This document shows positions 8,987-20,967 of a stretch of 64,000 bases of DNA, one piece after another. The stretch is from Arthrobacter woluwensis (GTDB taxonomy: Bacteria; Actinomycetota; Actinomycetes; Actinomycetales; Micrococcaceae): the NCBI RefSeq assembly GCF_030816155.1, contig NZ_JAUSXR010000001.1, forward strand, positions 2,480,001 to 2,544,000, given 5' to 3'. The notes under the pieces are model-generated. The model was not told the origin of the DNA. It saw only the letters and a list, made by a program, of their open reading frames with translations, and searched no databases. Within the stretch, counting starts at the first letter, position 1; each line of letters starts with the position of its first letter. Made by a program: the position numbers and the translations under genes.

Positions 8987-9024
8987 GCCGGCGGTCTCAG
9001 ACCGGGAGTGTCAGACCGGGAGTG

Positions 9025-9843
9025 TCAGGCCGCCCCGAGACGCGAGGCGTCGTCCGCGCCGGCGCCGAGTGGGATGACATGCGGCCGACCTTCGGATGGC
9101 TCCGACACCACCTGCGCCCGCAATCCGAAGACGGACCACAGCAGTTCCGGTGTGACGACGTCCACCGGCTCGCCCTGCGCCTCAACGCGGCCGCCCCTGA
9201 GGGCGACGATGCGGTCCGAGTACCGTGCGGCCAGCGAGATGTCGTGCAGCACCATGACCACGGTCCGGCCCAGTTCGCGGTTGAGCCGCCGCACGAGTTC
9301 CAGCACCTCCACCTGATGCGCCAGGTCCAGGTAGGTGGTCGGTTCGTCGAGCAGGAGGATGTCGCTCTCCTGAGCCAGCGCCAAGGAGATCCAGGCACGC
9401 TGCCGCTGTCCGCCCGAGAGATCGTCGAGCGCCATGTCCGCCAGATCCGTGATGTCGGTGGCCGCGAGGGCCGCAGCCACGGCCGCCTCATCCCCCGCCG
9501 AGAACTGCTGATACCACTTCTGCCGGGGATGACGGCCGCGTGTGACGAGCTCGGTGACGGTGAGCCCTGAAGGCGCCTGCGGTGTCTGCGGCAGGACCGC
9601 CACGCGCCGGGCGAGCTCCCGCTGCGAGAACGACAGGACGTCGCGGCCCTCCAGGAGCACCCGTCCGGCGGTGGGCTTCAGCAGCCGGGAAAGGCCCTTG
9701 AGCAGCGTCGACTTGCCGCAGCCGTTCGGCCCGATGATGGTGGTGACGCTCCCCTGCTCGAACTGCAGGCTCAGCTCCTCCACCACGGTCCGTCCCTCGA
9801 AACCCAGGCTCAGCCGCTCGGCGGCCAGGATGGAGTGGGTCAT
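9025..9843 (-). CDS. Iron-siderophore ABC transporter ATP-binding protein (FecE/FepC type)
   Basis: 272 residues from the ATG at 9843, which overlaps the preceding permease stop by four bases. Walker A is GPNGCGKST, the signature is DDLSGGQRQRAWI, Walker B is DILLLDEPTTYLDL and the H-loop is VMVLHDIS. The TTYLDL variant and the RGRHP segment in the Q-loop region are typical of FecCDE/FepDGC-type iron importers. Last gene of a three-gene operon (permease, permease, ATPase). It powers uptake of ferric siderophores delivered by the lipoprotein encoded divergently at 12134. Confidence 0.93.
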   Translation of the reverse strand: MTHSILAAERLSLGFEGRTVVEELSLQFEQGSVTTIIGPNGCGKSTLLKGLSRLLKPTAGRVLLEGRDVLSFSQRELARRVAVLPQTPQAPSGLTVTELVTRGRHPRQKWYQQFSAGDEAAVAAALAATDITDLADMALDDLSGGQRQRAWISLALAQESDILLLDEPTTYLDLAHQVEVLELVRRLNRELGRTVVMVLHDISLAARYSDRIVALRGGRVEAQGEPVDVVTPELLWSVFGLRAQVVSEPSEGRPHVIPLGAGADDASRLGAA

Positions 9844-10946
9844 GAGGTCCTCCTCTGTGAGCGGAGCACCAGGGCGATGAGCACCGGGGCGCCGAGAACG
9901 GTCGTGAGCACGCCCACCGGGAGGGTATGCGGAAGCAGGAAGCCGGCCACCAGATCGGCGACGACGACGAACGCGGCCCCCAGGAGCGCGGTCACTCCCA
10001 GCGGGGGCACCACGGCGCCGGTCACGTGGCGTGCGGCGAGCGGGCAGACGAGCGCCACGAACGCCACGGGCCCGGCAAGAACCGTGCCCGCGGCGGCCAG
10101 CAGCACGGCCAGCAGCAGGAGAGCGGGGCGGGTGACGCGCAGCGGCAGCCCGAGGCTCCGTGCCGTGTTGTCGTCGAAGGACCCCAGCAGGAGCCAGCGG
10201 CCTGCCATGGCGCTGAGCAGGAGCAACGGAAGTGCGACGGCGACGACCGGGATCACCGCGTCCCAGTCCCGGCCGTTGAGCGAGCCACTCATCCACGTCA
10301 GGGCCTGAGCCGCATTGCTCACGTCCCCCAGCGTCAGCATCCAGGTCACCAGGCTCGTGGCGACGGCCGTGGCACCCAGACCGACCAGCACCATCCGGTT
10401 GCTGTCCAGAAGGTCCTGACTGCGGCGGAATGCCAGGAGGAACACGGCCCCCCCGAAGAGCACGGCCCCGGCGGCGGCCGCGAGCGGCAGACCCAATGCC
10501 GCAGCCACGCCGCTCAGTCCACCGGCCCCGCCACCGGCGAGCACCAGGACGGAAACCGCGCCCAGGGAAGCTCCGGAGGTCACGCCGAGGATTTCGGGCG
10601 TCGCCAGCGGATTGCGCGCAACATTCTGCGTGAGCGCGCCGGACACGGCCAGGCAGGCGCCCGCCAGGGCCCCGGCGACGGTCCGCGGCAGCCGGAACTC
10701 CTGCACCTGCAGAGTGAGACGCGGTGGCGTCCCGGCCGGGGTGGTCAAGCCGCGGAGGACGTCGCCCAGCGACAGCGGCCGGCCCGCGAACATGAGGTGG
10801 GCGAGCACCGCGAGGAGCAGGACGGCCACGGCGAGCAGCCCCACCAGAAGCACACGCGGCCGGAGGACGAAGGAGGCCCGGCCTGCCCGGAGCACCTGGG
10901 GACGCAGGCGAGGGCGAGTGCGAGCCGAGGTCGCCGCGGCGCTCAC
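9840..10946 (-). CDS. FecCD-family iron-siderophore permease (FepG type)
   Basis: 368 residues with a GTG start that overlaps the upstream stop by four bases. About 40 polar N-terminal residues precede roughly ten hydrophobic segments. LPRTVAGALAGACLAVSGALTQNVARNPLATPEILGVTSGA is condensed here to its hallmarks LPRT, GALTQ, NPLA and ILGVTSGA, which mark BtuC/FecCD permeases. It forms the membrane channel with the paralogous permease at 10943-11983. Confidence 0.92.
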   Translation of the reverse strand: MSAAATSARTRPRLRPQVLRAGRASFVLRPRVLLVGLLAVAVLLLAVLAHLMFAGRPLSLGDVLRGLTTPAGTPPRLTLQVQEFRLPRTVAGALAGACLAVSGALTQNVARNPLATPEILGVTSGASLGAVSVLVLAGGGAGGLSGVAAALGLPLAAAAGAVLFGGAVFLLAFRRSQDLLDSNRMVLVGLGATAVATSLVTWMLTLGDVSNAAQALTWMSGSLNGRDWDAVIPVVAVALPLLLLSAMAGRWLLLGSFDDNTARSLGLPLRVTRPALLLLAVLLAAAGTVLAGPVAFVALVCPLAARHVTGAVVPPLGVTALLGAAFVVVADLVAGFLLPHTLPVGVLTTVLGAPVLIALVLRSQRRTS

Positions 10947-11983
10947 AGGGACATCAGCTTCCGCCGACGGGCCAGGTGAATGAAGAAGGGTCCGCCGATC
11001 ACGGCGAGGAGGACGCCCACGGGGAGTTCACCGGGCCGCGCCACGACACGCCCCGCCGTATCGGCGAGAAGCAGCACCGCGGCGCCGAGCACGGCGCTGC
11101 AGGGGACCTGCCAGCGGTAGTCGAGCCCCACGAGACGACGGGCCAGGTGCGGTACCAGAAGTCCCGCGAAGGCGATGGGCCCCGCCAGAGTCACGGCGAC
11201 GGCAGCCAGCACCGCGATCGCCGCCACTCCCACGGTCCGGGAGCGCCTGACGTCGACGCCGAGGGAGGCAGCTGTCTCCTCCCCCAGAGCCAGGGCATTG
11301 AGCGAACCGATGTTCAGGGCCGCGAGCAGCAAACCGACCACGAGGAACGGCAACACCCCGGGGATCATGCCTCCCCGCACGGCGATCGAGCCGAGCTGCC
11401 AGAAGCGCAAGGTGTCCAGAGCGGCGTCACTGCTCAGCACGATGACGGAGACCAGCCCGCCGGCGAGCGCCGTGACGGCGGCACCGGCGAGGACGAGCGT
11501 CACAGTCGTGACGCCGTGCCGGCTGGCCGATCCGACAGCGAACACGAGAGCACTTGCTGCGACGGCTCCCACGAACGCCAGCACGGCCTGCGGACCGGAG
11601 GCTTCCAGCGCGGCGCCGCCGAGCAGGGAGCCGGTGACGATGGCGAGCGCGGCGCCGGAGTAGATTCCGAGGAGTCCGGGGTCTGCGATGGGGTTCCGGG
11701 TGTGGGCTTGAGTCAGGCAGCCCGCGATGCCCAGGCACGCGCCGACCACCAGACCGTTGAGGGTTCGGGGCCAGCGCAGCTCTCTGATGGCCACATCCGC
11801 CACGGAGCCGTCGGGGGTCGCCAGCGCGTGCCAGACGTCCGCGAGGCTCGATTCGAGCCCGCCGATCAGCACACTGCCCAGCAGCGCGGCGAGCAGCAGC
11901 ACGACCGCGGCGCCCAGGCCCCGGGTGGGCGCGCGCCGTCGTCGTCCCTCCGCGAGTGGCACGCGGGGAAGCACAGCAGTCAC
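10943..11983 (-). CDS. FecCD-family iron-siderophore permease (FepD type)
   Basis: 346 residues from the GTG at 11983, chosen because GGGGG precedes it and the FecCD fold begins here. The frame stays open far upstream, but that part is antisense to the substrate-binding gene. It carries LRWPRTLNG, GCLTQAHTRNPIADPGLLGIYSGA and VPHLARRLVG, all FecCD hallmarks, over about ten membrane segments. First gene of the importer operon, divergent from the binding lipoprotein across an iron-box promoter region. Confidence 0.92.
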   Translation of the reverse strand: MTAVLPRVPLAEGRRRRAPTRGLGAAVVLLLAALLGSVLIGGLESSLADVWHALATPDGSVADVAIRELRWPRTLNGLVVGACLGIAGCLTQAHTRNPIADPGLLGIYSGAALAIVTGSLLGGAALEASGPQAVLAFVGAVAASALVFAVGSASRHGVTTVTLVLAGAAVTALAGGLVSVIVLSSDAALDTLRFWQLGSIAVRGGMIPGVLPFLVVGLLLAALNIGSLNALALGEETAASLGVDVRRSRTVGVAAIAVLAAVAVTLAGPIAFAGLLVPHLARRLVGLDYRWQVPCSAVLGAAVLLLADTAGRVVARPGELPVGVLLAVIGGPFFIHLARRRKLMSL

Positions 11984-12015
11984 AGCAGACCCCCAAGGGT
12001 AATACGCAAGGAAAA

Positions 12016-12045
12016 TTGCACGTAATCGATGCGTGCCGCTACAGT
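12016..12045 (+). promoter_or_regulatory. Promoter of the siderophore-binding lipoprotein gene
   Basis: TTGCAC (12016-12021), an 18-base spacer and TACAGT (12040-12045). On the minus strand TAGACT (12048 down to 12043) could be the -10 of the divergent permease operon. Confidence 0.5.
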
Positions 12046-12058
12046 CTAGCAACATGGC

Positions 12059-12077
12059 TAAAGCAAGCCTTGCCTTA
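12059..12077. promoter_or_regulatory. Iron box (IdeR/DmdR operator)
   Basis: The 19-base site TAAAGCAAGCCTTGCCTTA fits the degenerate consensus TWAGGTWAGSCTWACCTWA at 16 positions. It lies just past the predicted start of the lipoprotein transcript and over the probable -35 region of the divergent permease operon. One bound repressor could therefore shut both units when iron is plentiful. Confidence 0.75.
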
Positions 12078-12133
12078 GTCCGGGCGTGCGCGCTCCGGCC
12101 GCCCGTCCCCCACCTCAGTAAGTGAAAGCACTC

Positions 12134-13144
12134 ATGATCCGCACCCGATTCACCCGCGCGGCCTTCGGCGCCGCCGCTGCCACCGCCCTTCTGGCCCTCA
12201 CCGCCTGCGGCGGCTCCACGAGCGCGGCCCCCTCTCCGTCCTCCGCCGGCGACGGGCAGTTCCCCAAGACCATCGAGCACGCCATGGGCAAGACCACCCT
12301 GGAGGGCAAGCCGCTGCGGGTCGCCACCCTCGACGCGAGCTACACGGATGCCGCGCTCGCTCTCGGGGCCGAAGTGGCCGCCTACACGACGTACCGCAAG
12401 GGCGACGAGAGCTTCCCGTCCTACCTGGGCGACGTCTCCGCGCTGACCAAGAACGCCGTCAACGTCGGAGCCCTGGCCGAGCCGAGCCTGGACAAGATCC
12501 TGGAGGCGCAGCCCGATCTCATCGTCTCCGCCAAGGTCCGCCACGAAGCCCTCTACGGTCAGCTGTCCAAGATCGCGCCGACCATCTTCTCCAAGTCCAC
12601 CGGCCCCACGTGGAAGCAGAACATCGTGATGCTCGGCGACGCGCTCGGCAAGAAGAGCCTCGCGGACCAGCTCATCAAGGAGTACCAGGACCGGGCCAAG
12701 AAGGTCGGTGCGGCCATCCTGTCCAAGAAGCCGGGGCTGACGTACTCCTACGTCCGTTTCGCGGGTGAGGACACGGCCCGCCTGTACTCCAGCACGTCCT
12801 TCCTGGGCGAGATCATGAAGGATGCGGGCATTCCCCGCCCCGCCGGGCAGCCGGACTCTCAGGACAAGATCATGGTGGAGCTCGGCCAGGAGAAGATCAC
12901 CCAGGCTGACGCCGGACTCATCATCACCTCCGCCTTCGGTCAGGACACCGCGGTAGGCGCCAAGTCCCGCGCTCAGATGGACAAGTTCCTGAGCAACCCC
13001 CTGTGGAAGTCGCTCAAGGGCCAGGTCCTGAAGGCCGATGACCGCGTCTTCGCCACTTCCGTGAGCCTGCAGGGTGCCCACGGTGTGCTCACCAAGCTCG
13101 CGGAGACCTTCGGCGTGGACCCGCAGCTGCCCGCGAAGAAGTAG
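12134..13144 (+). CDS. Iron-siderophore ABC transporter substrate-binding lipoprotein
   Basis: 336 residues from the ATG at 12134; a GTG at 12122 would add four residues and is also possible. The signal peptide ends in the lipobox LTAC. The mature part has the type III binding-protein pattern of FecB/FepB proteins: GKPLRVATLD, then NVGALAEPSLDKILEAQPDLIV, then a long central helix and a C-terminal lobe. It captures the ferric siderophore outside the membrane for the FecCD permeases encoded divergently. Regulated by the iron box at 12059-12077. Confidence 0.92.
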   Translation: MIRTRFTRAAFGAAAATALLALTACGGSTSAAPSPSSAGDGQFPKTIEHAMGKTTLEGKPLRVATLDASYTDAALALGAEVAAYTTYRKGDESFPSYLGDVSALTKNAVNVGALAEPSLDKILEAQPDLIVSAKVRHEALYGQLSKIAPTIFSKSTGPTWKQNIVMLGDALGKKSLADQLIKEYQDRAKKVGAAILSKKPGLTYSYVRFAGEDTARLYSSTSFLGEIMKDAGIPRPAGQPDSQDKIMVELGQEKITQADAGLIITSAFGQDTAVGAKSRAQMDKFLSNPLWKSLKGQVLKADDRVFATSVSLQGAHGVLTKLAETFGVDPQLPAKK

Positions 13145-13163
13145 CCCGGCAGCCCTCGCAGGG

Positions 13164-13217
13164 GAACGACGACGGCGGCGGGTCACCTTCACAGGTGACC
13201 CGCCGCCGTCGTCGTTC
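13164..13217. terminator. Bidirectional terminator, 25-bp perfect stem
   Basis: Arms 13164-13188 and 13193-13217 around a TCAC loop, containing ACGACGACGGCGGC. It lies between the convergent lipoprotein and guaB genes. Confidence 0.85.
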
Positions 13218-16998: not shown

Positions 16999-17093
16999 AC
17001 CTATCCAGCCGTCGGAGCGTTATCTCATCGTTACATTCTAGCCTGTGCGCCGGCTATGTGCCTCCTCGGGACCCGCTGGTCTACTCCGCACTC

Positions 17094-17121
17094 TTGACTA
17101 GTGTGCATTGCGTAGTAGTGT
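17094..17121 (+). promoter_or_regulatory. Promoter of the padR operon
   Basis: TTGACT (17094-17099), a 16-base spacer and TAGTGT (17116-17121). ACTA and TAGT half-sites (17097-17100, 17113-17116) form a small dyad over the promoter and could be the PadR operator, but this is weak. Confidence 0.5.
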
Positions 17122-17171
17122 CGTGTGCAGAAGATCCGTGGACGATCCATGAGGTCGGAAAGGGGGAATCC

Positions 17172-17537
17172 GTGGAAACCACGCAGTTGCTCAAAGGCGT
17201 CCTGGACCTGGCGGTCCTGGCCGTGCTGGACCGTGAGGACGGCTACGGGTACGACGTCGTCCGACGGCTCCGTGCGGCGGGACTCGAAGAGGTCGGGGAC
17301 GCCTCGGTGTACGGCACGCTGCGCCGCCTCTACAACGGGGGCGCGCTCAGCAGCTATGTCGTGCCCTCCGACGGGGGCCCGCACCGGAAGTACTACGGCA
17401 TCAATGCGCAGGGCAAAGCCCTGCTGGAGGTCCAGGCCAAAGGATGGCAGGACTTCTCGCGCAGCATGGACCTGCTGATCTCCGGGGGTCCGCTCCCCGG
17501 CACCCGCACCACCGAAACCACCCAGGAGACGGAATGA
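17172..17537 (+). CDS. PadR-family transcriptional regulator
   Basis: 121 residues from the GTG at 17172, which has an AAAGGGGG ribosome site. It shows the PadR winged helix: LLKGVLDLAVLAVLDREDGYGYDVVRRL is summarised by GYGYDVVRRL, then SVYGTLRRLYNGGAL, and the wing YVVPSDGGPHRKYYGINAQG. Such small PadR proteins repress the operon they sit in. Its stop overlaps the next start by four bases (ATGA), so the membrane protein is its likely target and sensor partner. Confidence 0.9.
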   Translation: METTQLLKGVLDLAVLAVLDREDGYGYDVVRRLRAAGLEEVGDASVYGTLRRLYNGGALSSYVVPSDGGPHRKYYGINAQGKALLEVQAKGWQDFSRSMDLLISGGPLPGTRTTETTQETE

Positions 17538-18535
17538 GCACCACAGGAATCACGGGCGTTCCGGCAGCCATCGCCGACTACGCCGCGGCCGTCCGCCGCG
17601 AGCTCGGCGACCTGCCGAAGCACGACGTCGACGAGCTGACCGAAGGCCTCGACGCCGACCTCCTGGAGCAGTTCCGTGAGTCCGGGACGGCGCCGCTGGA
17701 GTCGCCGGCCTCGTACGCGGCGGAGCTGCGGACGTCCGCCGGACTCGCCCCCAGGACCGAGGGCCGGTCCGGCGCGGCGCGTGGCTTCACCGCCACATAC
17801 CGCGAGGCCGTCACCAAGCTCCGCCTCGCCGCGGACCGATACCCCCTCGTCCGGGCCACCTGGGATTTCCTCGTCCTGCTGCGACCGCTCTGGTGGGTGG
17901 TCCGGGCCTGGACGGTGTATCAGATCATCGCATCGGCGTGGGGATCGGGCATCCCCCGTTTCGTCTTCCCGCACGGGCCGCTGACGTGGGCGTTCTTCAT
18001 CCTCTGCGTGGTGCTGAGCGTCAGTTGGAGCACCAGGGTCCTCCGGCCCGGGCACTGGCCTGCCCGGCTGCGGACGATCACCAATGTGGTCACGGTCATC
18101 GCGTCTCTCCTGACGGTCCCCATGGCGATCTCGGTGGCGAACAGCACCGAAGAGTACACCGGGTACATCCCCGCCGGCGGACCGTGCACCCTGTTCGACG
18201 GGGTCTGCCACAACGGCTCGGTCGTGGGACCGTTCTTCGTCTACGGCCCGGACGGCACGCGCCTGGAGAACGTCCGGTTCTTCACCAACGACGGGTCCAG
18301 CATCCCGATCGATCTGGCGCCGGCGGAGGATCCCGGTCCGTGGGTCGTGGCGCCGCGGAGCACGTCCGGAGCCGCGGCCCCGGGCATGAGCCCCGCGCCC
18401 AGCCCAACTGCGCCCGGCCCGACAACACCGGGCGGCACCGTGCCCGGCACCGGCGCGACGTCCGCGCCGCACTCCCCCGCGCCGTCGTCGGCGGTCACTC
18501 CAGGTCCGAAGCCGAGCGCCACATCCGGCCGCTGA
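17534..18535 (+). CDS. Membrane protein with HAAS-like N-terminus, paired with PadR
   Basis: 333 residues. The first 60 form a soluble helical module (AAAVRRELGDLPKHDVDELTEGL) resembling HAAS/DUF1700 domains that usually follow PadR genes. A hydrophobic region has three or four membrane segments (around FLVLLRPLWWVV, WAFFILCVVLSV and NVVTVIASLLTVPMAI). An exported segment with two Cys precedes a long Pro/Thr/Ser/Ala tail ending PSATSGR. The pair probably forms an envelope-sensing unit. The last 25 bases are duplicated after the next gene, at 19218-19242. Confidence 0.75.
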   Translation: MSTTGITGVPAAIADYAAAVRRELGDLPKHDVDELTEGLDADLLEQFRESGTAPLESPASYAAELRTSAGLAPRTEGRSGAARGFTATYREAVTKLRLAADRYPLVRATWDFLVLLRPLWWVVRAWTVYQIIASAWGSGIPRFVFPHGPLTWAFFILCVVLSVSWSTRVLRPGHWPARLRTITNVVTVIASLLTVPMAISVANSTEEYTGYIPAGGPCTLFDGVCHNGSVVGPFFVYGPDGTRLENVRFFTNDGSSIPIDLAPAEDPGPWVVAPRSTSGAAAPGMSPAPSPTAPGPTTPGGTVPGTGATSAPHSPAPSSAVTPGPKPSATSGR

Positions 18536-18536
18536 G
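18512..18536 (+). repeat. 25-bp direct repeat, left copy
   Basis: The repeat begins CCGAGCGCCACA and ends CCGGCCGCTGAG. It spans the last codons and stop of the HAAS-type gene and matches 19218-19242 at 24 of 25 positions. Confidence 0.85.
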
Positions 18537-18626
18537 GCCCGACCCCTGAACCGAACGCAGACCCCTCAAGCCGAAATCATGGTGTGATCGTGGAGTGCGC
18601 TCTCTGTAACCGCCAAGGAGAAAACA

Positions 18627-19241
18627 ATGACGCTTGATTCAGGCCCTGCCGTCCCTGGTCTCATCGGACATTTTGAGCGCACTCTGGGCATGATCGAGGC
18701 AGGATGGTCCGTCGATCCAGACGGGGCTGAGATGCCCTATCAGATCGCTCAGTTCACCGGCGGGTCTGACGAAGATTCTGTCGGCTATTCGACAATCGGC
18801 TTGAGCAGACACTCGTTGGCAACAACGTCGTCCGACCAGACGATCCGTCAAGAACTCTTGATGCTTGCCCCAAAGTCTATGCAGCCGGATCTTCCAGCTG
18901 GTTTTATTCACCAGGTTGCTTCGATGGTACTTACGACTCATCAAGCGCTGCTGCGAGGATCGGTGATAGGTCCGGCGGGGGCACTCGTACCAGGGTCAGA
19001 GCTGACCGCACTGTACGTCACCATGCCAAGCTACTTCCCTGTCGATTTCGCGACGTACCCCGGCGATGACGGCGACATTGCAATTGTCTGGCTGGTACCC
19101 ATCACCTCCAACGAGGCAAACTTCGTGGCGAAGTACGGATGGGACCCCTTTGAAGACGCACTCGTTGAACAAGACCCTGATCTGGTCGACTTCCACCGGC
19201 CTGAAATGGAGCTATATCCGAGCGCCACACCCGGCCGCTGA
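18627..19241 (+). CDS. Suppressor-of-fused (SUFU) domain protein, probable orphan immunity-like protein
   Basis: 204 residues, ATG preceded by AAGGAG. The middle and C-terminal parts (YSTIGLSRHSL, RQELLMLAP, LTALYVTMPSYFP, IAIVWLVPITSNEANFVAKYG) match bacterial SUFU-domain proteins, many of which are immunity proteins in polymorphic-toxin systems. Base composition is visibly lower in G+C than its neighbours. Its C-terminus PSATPGR copies the PSATSGR end of the preceding gene because of the flanking 25-bp repeat. No toxin gene is nearby, so an immunity role is inference from the family only. Confidence 0.8.
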   Translation: MTLDSGPAVPGLIGHFERTLGMIEAGWSVDPDGAEMPYQIAQFTGGSDEDSVGYSTIGLSRHSLATTSSDQTIRQELLMLAPKSMQPDLPAGFIHQVASMVLTTHQALLRGSVIGPAGALVPGSELTALYVTMPSYFPVDFATYPGDDGDIAIVWLVPITSNEANFVAKYGWDPFEDALVEQDPDLVDFHRPEMELYPSATPGR

Positions 19242-19242
19242 G
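19218..19242 (+). repeat. 25-bp direct repeat, right copy
   Basis: Second copy of the repeat at 18512-18536, placed exactly over the end and stop codon of the SUFU gene. The two copies are 706 bases apart, start to start. Confidence 0.85.
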
Positions 19243-19278
19243 TCCGGCCGCCGGCGCCGAGCCTGCCCTGAAAACACG

Positions 19279-19313
19279 AAAGGCCCGGATCCATTGGGGG
19301 GATCCGGGCCTTT
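19279..19313. terminator. Bidirectional terminator (SUFU gene / groEL)
   Basis: 14-bp stem AAAGGCCCGGATCC with a 7-base loop, extended outward by ACACG/CGTGT with a mismatch. It lies between convergent genes. Confidence 0.85.
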
Positions 19314-19329
19314 CCGTGTCAGAGACGGG

Positions 19330-20967
<1,638 letters not shown>

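Follow-up and report, generated by a model that had tools for sequence, protein, structure and literature searches.

A SUFU-domain gene at the 3' end of a HAAS-type gene in Arthrobacter woluwensis: apparent single-gene acquisition with duplication of the target gene end

Organization of the locus

The window analysed is a stretch of 64,000 nucleotides from Arthrobacter woluwensis (contig NZ_JAUSXR010000001.1, positions 2,480,001 to 2,544,000). It carries a gene coding a HAAS-type membrane protein followed by a gene for a SUFU-domain protein and by groEL (Table 1). The first two genes terminate in the same 25-bp direct repeat, CCGAGCGCCACA(T/C)CCGGCCGCTGAG, whose copies are 706 bp apart and identical at 24 of 25 positions. 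Each copy comprises the last 24 coding bases of the respective ORF, stop codon included, and one base past the stop. A preliminary description of the locus had reported the recurrence of the HAAS gene end after the SUFU gene; the match stands, while the unit proves to reach one base beyond the gene that was thought to contain it.

Table 1. Features of the SUFU locus in the window.
Feature	Position	Strand	Basis
HAAS-type membrane protein gene (target)	17534..18535	+	ORF; sub-threshold Pfam HAAS; distant homologues with PF22564
25-bp repeat, gene-proximal: HAAS 3' end, stop codon and one base	18512..18536	+	sequence match
681-bp insert, missing in sister species G001, G+C 0.564	18537..19217	+	comparison with G001
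SUFU (Imm-SuFu type) gene, 204 aa; final 7 residues PSATPGR repeat-derived	18627..19241	+	ORF, Pfam, family alignment
25-bp repeat, distal: gives SUFU stop codon, meets original downstream sequence	19218..19242	+	sequence match, G001
Terminator-like hairpin past groEL, in G001 too; marks original downstream flank	19278..19314	-	comparison with G001
groEL, lying downstream in the window and also in G001 and G002	19330..20940	-	ORF; name read from translation

The two sites are the only ones in the whole 3.51-Mb genome that match the 25-mer within 3 mismatches. Given this uniqueness, and a pair with 24/25 identity being found in none of 100 dinucleotide shuffles of window positions 17001-20500, a chance repeat is ruled out. 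A longer repeat of 43 nt at 81% identity was also considered and rejected: the part added beyond the 25 bp is no better than in shuffled sequence, 28% and 45% of shuffles reaching its alignment score.

The DNA between the copies is lower in G+C than the window as a whole (0.689), as first described. The SUFU gene fills 591 of the 681 bp and the remaining listed ORFs of at least 80 aa in the insert overlap it. A search for terminal inverted repeats, as expected of a transposon, found no inverted pair of at least 10 nt linking the two insert ends, and a promoter scan over 18400-19400 returned no promoter.

The locus in related genomes

The collection contains four genomes of the genus group, here G000 (the genome of the window) to G003. 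Three of them have the HAAS gene: G000, the sister species G001 (92% protein identity) and G002 (59%). G001 carries a single copy of the repeat (L009 2485-2509), followed directly by the sequence found after the distal copy in the window; 190 of 200 bases downstream are identical to G000 and lead into the groEL terminator. In a chain of BLAST matches between 804 kb of G000 and 800 kb of G001, this place appears as a 681-bp gap in G000 and an overlap of exactly 25 bp in G001. An empty site with one 25-bp copy, predicted in the preliminary description, is therefore present. The HAAS gene of G002 leads straight towards groEL, without the repeat. The SUFU gene is missing from this place in G001 and G002, the other genus genomes with the HAAS gene; its presence there in all relatives had been named beforehand as an observation that would speak against insertion. 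Relative to the sister species, the alignment shows an insert at the HAAS gene 3' end and a duplication of that end. At the one position where the two copies differ, the G001 copy agrees with the distal one (CCC, against TCC in the proximal copy).

The SUFU gene is accessory. In a search of 59 genomes at E<=0.001 it had no match in G001 and G003. G002 codes a homologue with 76% identity at another location, and G000 itself has a second SUFU gene (60%). Across the family, seven of 395 genomes, G000 included, have a match at E<=1e-15. None of the 62 SUFU proteins found in the database exceeds 76% identity; phages gave no match, and four plasmid records have SUFU proteins, all below 60% identity. 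Just short, imperfect repeats surround two other SUFU genes (L004 and L007).

Origin of the shared carboxyl terminus

The 62 database relatives and the paralogue from G000 were aligned with the SUFU protein of the window, in which Leu196 and Tyr197 precede the PSATPGR tail. In forty of these 63 sequences the last residue is the one aligned with Leu196, so that just Tyr197 separates this end from the repeat-encoded tail; five extend 5 to 20 residues further. The G002 homologue reads GAG CTG TAG CCG where the window gene reads GAG CTA TAT CCG. With TAT in place of TAG the usual stop of the family is missing, so that the repeat supplies a new end to the SUFU gene. The paralogue has a different 8-residue extension, SPDAPRLM, and extensions as such do occur. 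A SUFU family naturally ending in PSATPGR, which the preliminary description had set out as a finding that would count against insertion, was rejected: none of the 63 sequences ends in this tail, the nearest look-alike being ASATPRT in a distant protein (P0062, 32% identity).

Close homologues of the HAAS protein end in KPSATPGR (P0063), KPSATSGR (P0064, from Arthrobacter sp. RCC_34) and KASATAGR (P0065). The PSAT(S/P)GR tail is thus native to the HAAS protein and borrowed by the SUFU protein, which rules out copying from SUFU to HAAS. As read from these alignments, it is the HAAS gene end that has been duplicated and its stop that the SUFU gene has taken over. Together with the empty site in G001, this bears out the initial proposal that DNA was inserted at the 3' end of a gene and the target end regenerated.

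Predicted function of the SUFU protein

The SUFU protein has a firm match to the Pfam SUFU domain (PF05076; 79.6 bits, cut-off 25). The HAAS domain is below threshold in the target protein (16.7 bits, cut-off 27); more distant homologues among those listed carry PF22564 and the nine closest have no Pfam label. The neighbours of the window SUFU gene are PadR, HAAS and groEL genes, and no recognised toxin adjoins it. A PADLOC search gave no match.

The SUFU paralogue of G000 follows an Imm33-like gene and a gene for an FtsK/SpoIIIE-type (type VII-like) ATPase, itself preceded by one for an FHA protein. The gene after it is presumably ligA, the name being read from its translation. The block formed by the Imm33-like and SUFU genes between the ATPase gene and ligA (L154 9974-11017; G000:C1:871974-873017) is missing at that place from G001 and G003, which have 143 bp there instead, and BLAST found no repeat overlap. 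Imm-SuFu and Imm33 appear side by side in a published list of immunity domains of polymorphic toxin systems, often coded in polyimmunity operons that are usually free of toxins (PMC3482391). With an Imm33-like gene and a type VII-like ATPase gene next to it, the paralogue points to an orphan immunity gene. The SUFU protein of the window is likely to be a putative orphan immunity protein, directed against toxins that rival actinobacteria produce.

Comparable inserts at other gene ends

The locus prompted a survey of species differences over the same 800-kb comparison of G000 and G001, from which HSPs of up to 120 bits and gaps shorter than 200 bp were left out. It yielded 38 gaps of at least 200 bp, eight of them with an overlap in the other genome. 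Six of these eight are inserts in G000 (25, 32, 68, 76, 56 and 6 bp of overlap) and two are inserts in G001 (84 and 14 bp). Three overlaps (76, 56 and 84 bp) are palindrome-like on inspection. Species differences of one gene with flanking palindrome-like repeats of 56-84 bp lie at G000:C1:2634853-2635341, G000:C1:2663599-2665460 and G001:C1:2722082-2722829. In the window, a terminator-like palindrome is found at 1590-1650 and again at 2671-2731, 1081 bp apart, flanking one ORF. A larger difference is at 8988-13165 of the window, where ~4.2 kb, which by eye resemble an iron-uptake transporter cluster, correspond to 103 bp in G001.

Repeat-bounded one-gene inserts came to light at two further gene 3' ends of G000. 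At ychF (L045, G000:C1:2432080-2434227) a DUF2971 gene lies within a 2084-bp insert that is flanked by a perfect 32-bp copy of the gene end. At the tmRNA gene (L119, G000:C1:2223323-2225209) a 1751-bp insert with a HIRAN-domain gene is flanked by a 68-bp direct repeat, identical at 68/68 positions and single-copy in G001. Five more inserts of low G+C have no repeat, and repeat-flanked insertion is therefore not the sole mode.

Inserts at ychF recur across the family. The ychF end was matched in 245 of 395 genomes, 23 of which have two to five copies on the same strand (counted by eye); neighbouring copies are ~0.7 to 7 kb apart in the nine of these 23 with positions. Eight arrays, from multi-copy genomes chosen for having positions, were read along with seven single-copy controls. 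At low stringency (up to 9/32 mismatches, where some copies may be chance matches) seven ychF ends were counted in G116 and in G007, six in G259 and five in G202, while six of the seven controls show one and G001 a second, weak one. The ychF end is thus a recurrent insertion site for repeat-bounded cargo with no recombinase inside, and forms tandem arrays in G116 (L088), G202 (L089), G259 (L090) and G007 (L093). The inserts include AbiD/Abi_2 (G202) and the DUF2971 gene of G000, which is PDC-S31-like; array genes with no family match were named, and palindromes assigned, by eye. Some of the later ychF repeats contain the inverted repeat CGGAACTC-GGTG-GAGTTCCG. The G116 genome has just two tyrosine recombinase matches.

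A 20-base core of the ychF end is carried by nine viral contigs. In one of them (L143) it lies beside a Pfam-confirmed phage integrase gene, and in L147, L149 and L151 integrase-like ORFs, recognized by motif, are within ~1 kb of it. A comparable series of repeats with different ORFs in between was seen in the distant actinobacterium Nocardia farcinica (L153, NZ_LN868939.1:1759178-1783220). PMC8637289 describes a pneumococcal integration site between ychF and a DUF951 gene; among the papers listed in literature searches, no title concerns ychF in Actinobacteria or ychF arrays.

A speculative reading, to which little probability is attached, makes the SUFU insert one product of a cassette-like process that operates in actinobacteria, Micrococcaceae among them. 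An enzyme encoded elsewhere would set single foreign genes, in some cases defence- or immunity-like ones, at gene 3' ends and regenerate the end. The outcome at ychF would be tandem arrays without an internal recombinase (up to ~7 repeat copies in one genome), an integron-like store with the target gene end as attachment site.

How the SUFU gene may have been inserted

The explanation rated first, to which about half of the confidence is given, is horizontal acquisition of one SUFU (Imm-SuFu) gene, its insertion at the HAAS gene 3' end by recombinase-independent short-homology recombination, and a role as an orphan immunity gene. Comparison with the sister species shows that the last 24 coding bases of the target and one more are duplicated; the upstream copy keeps the HAAS gene intact, and the downstream copy provides the SUFU gene with an in-frame end and stop not shared by its relatives. 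Joining may have been by short-homology (illegitimate) recombination with no dedicated recombinase. One option is a template switch, in which synthesis would leave the target after CTGAG, pass onto donor DNA and return 25 bp upstream at a shared CCG; another is Ku-type joining at a staggered break. A Ku gene elsewhere in G000 makes end-joining possible. Searches of nine genomes for tyrosine (PF00589) and large serine (PF07508) recombinases gave no match inside the window or within those ychF arrays that were read, which agrees with the recombinase-free insert of the preliminary description. Identity at the junction with the G002 homologue is just 3 bp (CCG). Wider similarity between the G002 sequence past the stop and the distal copy is equalled by 0.96% or 5% of random segments according to the gap penalty, which was chosen post hoc, and for the paralogue of G000 donor-target similarity is no better than chance; this dependence on the penalty and the result for the paralogue led to the similarity being counted as weak. 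The lack of a recombinase match and of an inverted pair, the presence of Ku and the 3-bp junction identity place short-homology insertion ahead of an integrase acting in trans. It is weakened by the repeat stopping one base past the stop codon, as an attachment site might, and by the two comparable inserts that the same chromosome carries at the 3' ends of ychF and the tmRNA gene, both of them plausible places for site-specific elements.

These last points feed the second explanation, tentative but with an appreciable chance of being correct, of an islet like a CIME: an integrase in trans, or one later lost, would have joined the 25-bp core of an element to the HAAS 3' end, bringing the SUFU gene. 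The repeat indeed takes in the 3' end of its target gene, which it restores, and within the same 800 kb the ychF (32-bp repeat) and tmRNA (68-bp) inserts are of similar build, the ychF core being found on viral contigs and, in L143, next to an integrase gene. HAAS is an unusual integrase target, however, being restricted at such similarity to its lineage (three of the four genus genomes), and no integrase-bearing occupant of the site was found. The same 25-mer with different cargo, suggested earlier as a thing to look for, did not turn up in G000 or in viral contigs: the 25-mer has just its two copies in G000, and the 22-base HAAS core has none in the viral contigs. On the latter ground, though absence from one collection is no proof, the 25-mer was set aside as a phage attachment site. 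Nor does the HAAS repeat clearly resemble the ychF site: when the better strand of the two is taken, 4% of shuffles equal its score. Two other histories appear improbable, to a similar degree. The insertion may be older and G001 may have lost the SUFU gene by recombination between the two repeats, which are able to recombine and of which the distal one shares CCC with G001 against TCC in the proximal one; the same insertion with end duplication is still needed, and no SUFU protein above 76% identity was found in a protein set that includes the HAAS proteins of Arthrobacter sp. RCC_34 and NPDC090010. Alternatively, homologous recombination spanning HAAS and groEL could have brought in a SUFU gene complete with its PSATPGR tail, from a strain that already had the gene joined to a HAAS end. 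The proximal copy is S-type as in RCC_34 and the distal one P-type as in P0063 and G001, but this depends on one base and just shifts the first insertion to another strain.

Significance and comparison with known systems

Judged from the two genomes side by side, the locus represents a real single-gene acquisition with target-end duplication, in which the site can be seen both empty and filled, along with the two junctions, and in which the cargo has taken over the stop codon of its target. It allows a concrete test of the way in which single immunity genes that have no mobile-element genes of their own spread between actinobacteria.

By the definition in PMC5704250, a CIME lies between direct repeats of the target gene end and has no integration or transfer genes; tandem accretion of CIMEs, as decayed elements, at gene 3' ends is known from the same source. 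The SUFU insert is alike in that direct repeats including the target gene end flank it, the empty site is single-copy, and DNA without integrase or transfer genes lies between (SUFU takes most of it; no PF00589 or PF07508 in the window). It differs in having one gene in 681 bp, cargo fused to the core, and no recombinase-bearing relative found at the site. With illegitimate short-homology insertions it shares a unique target, duplication of the target end, the lack of a recombinase gene and 3-bp junction identity with the sequence of a relative; the comparison here is with that relative in place of the donor. Unlike genes in polyimmunity loci, the window SUFU gene belongs to no immunity array and follows a PadR-HAAS gene pair by itself. 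It resembles the orphan immunity genes of the Imm-SuFu and Imm33 types in coding a SUFU domain with no recognised toxin adjoining, and in having a paralogue beside Imm33-like and FtsK/SpoIIIE genes.
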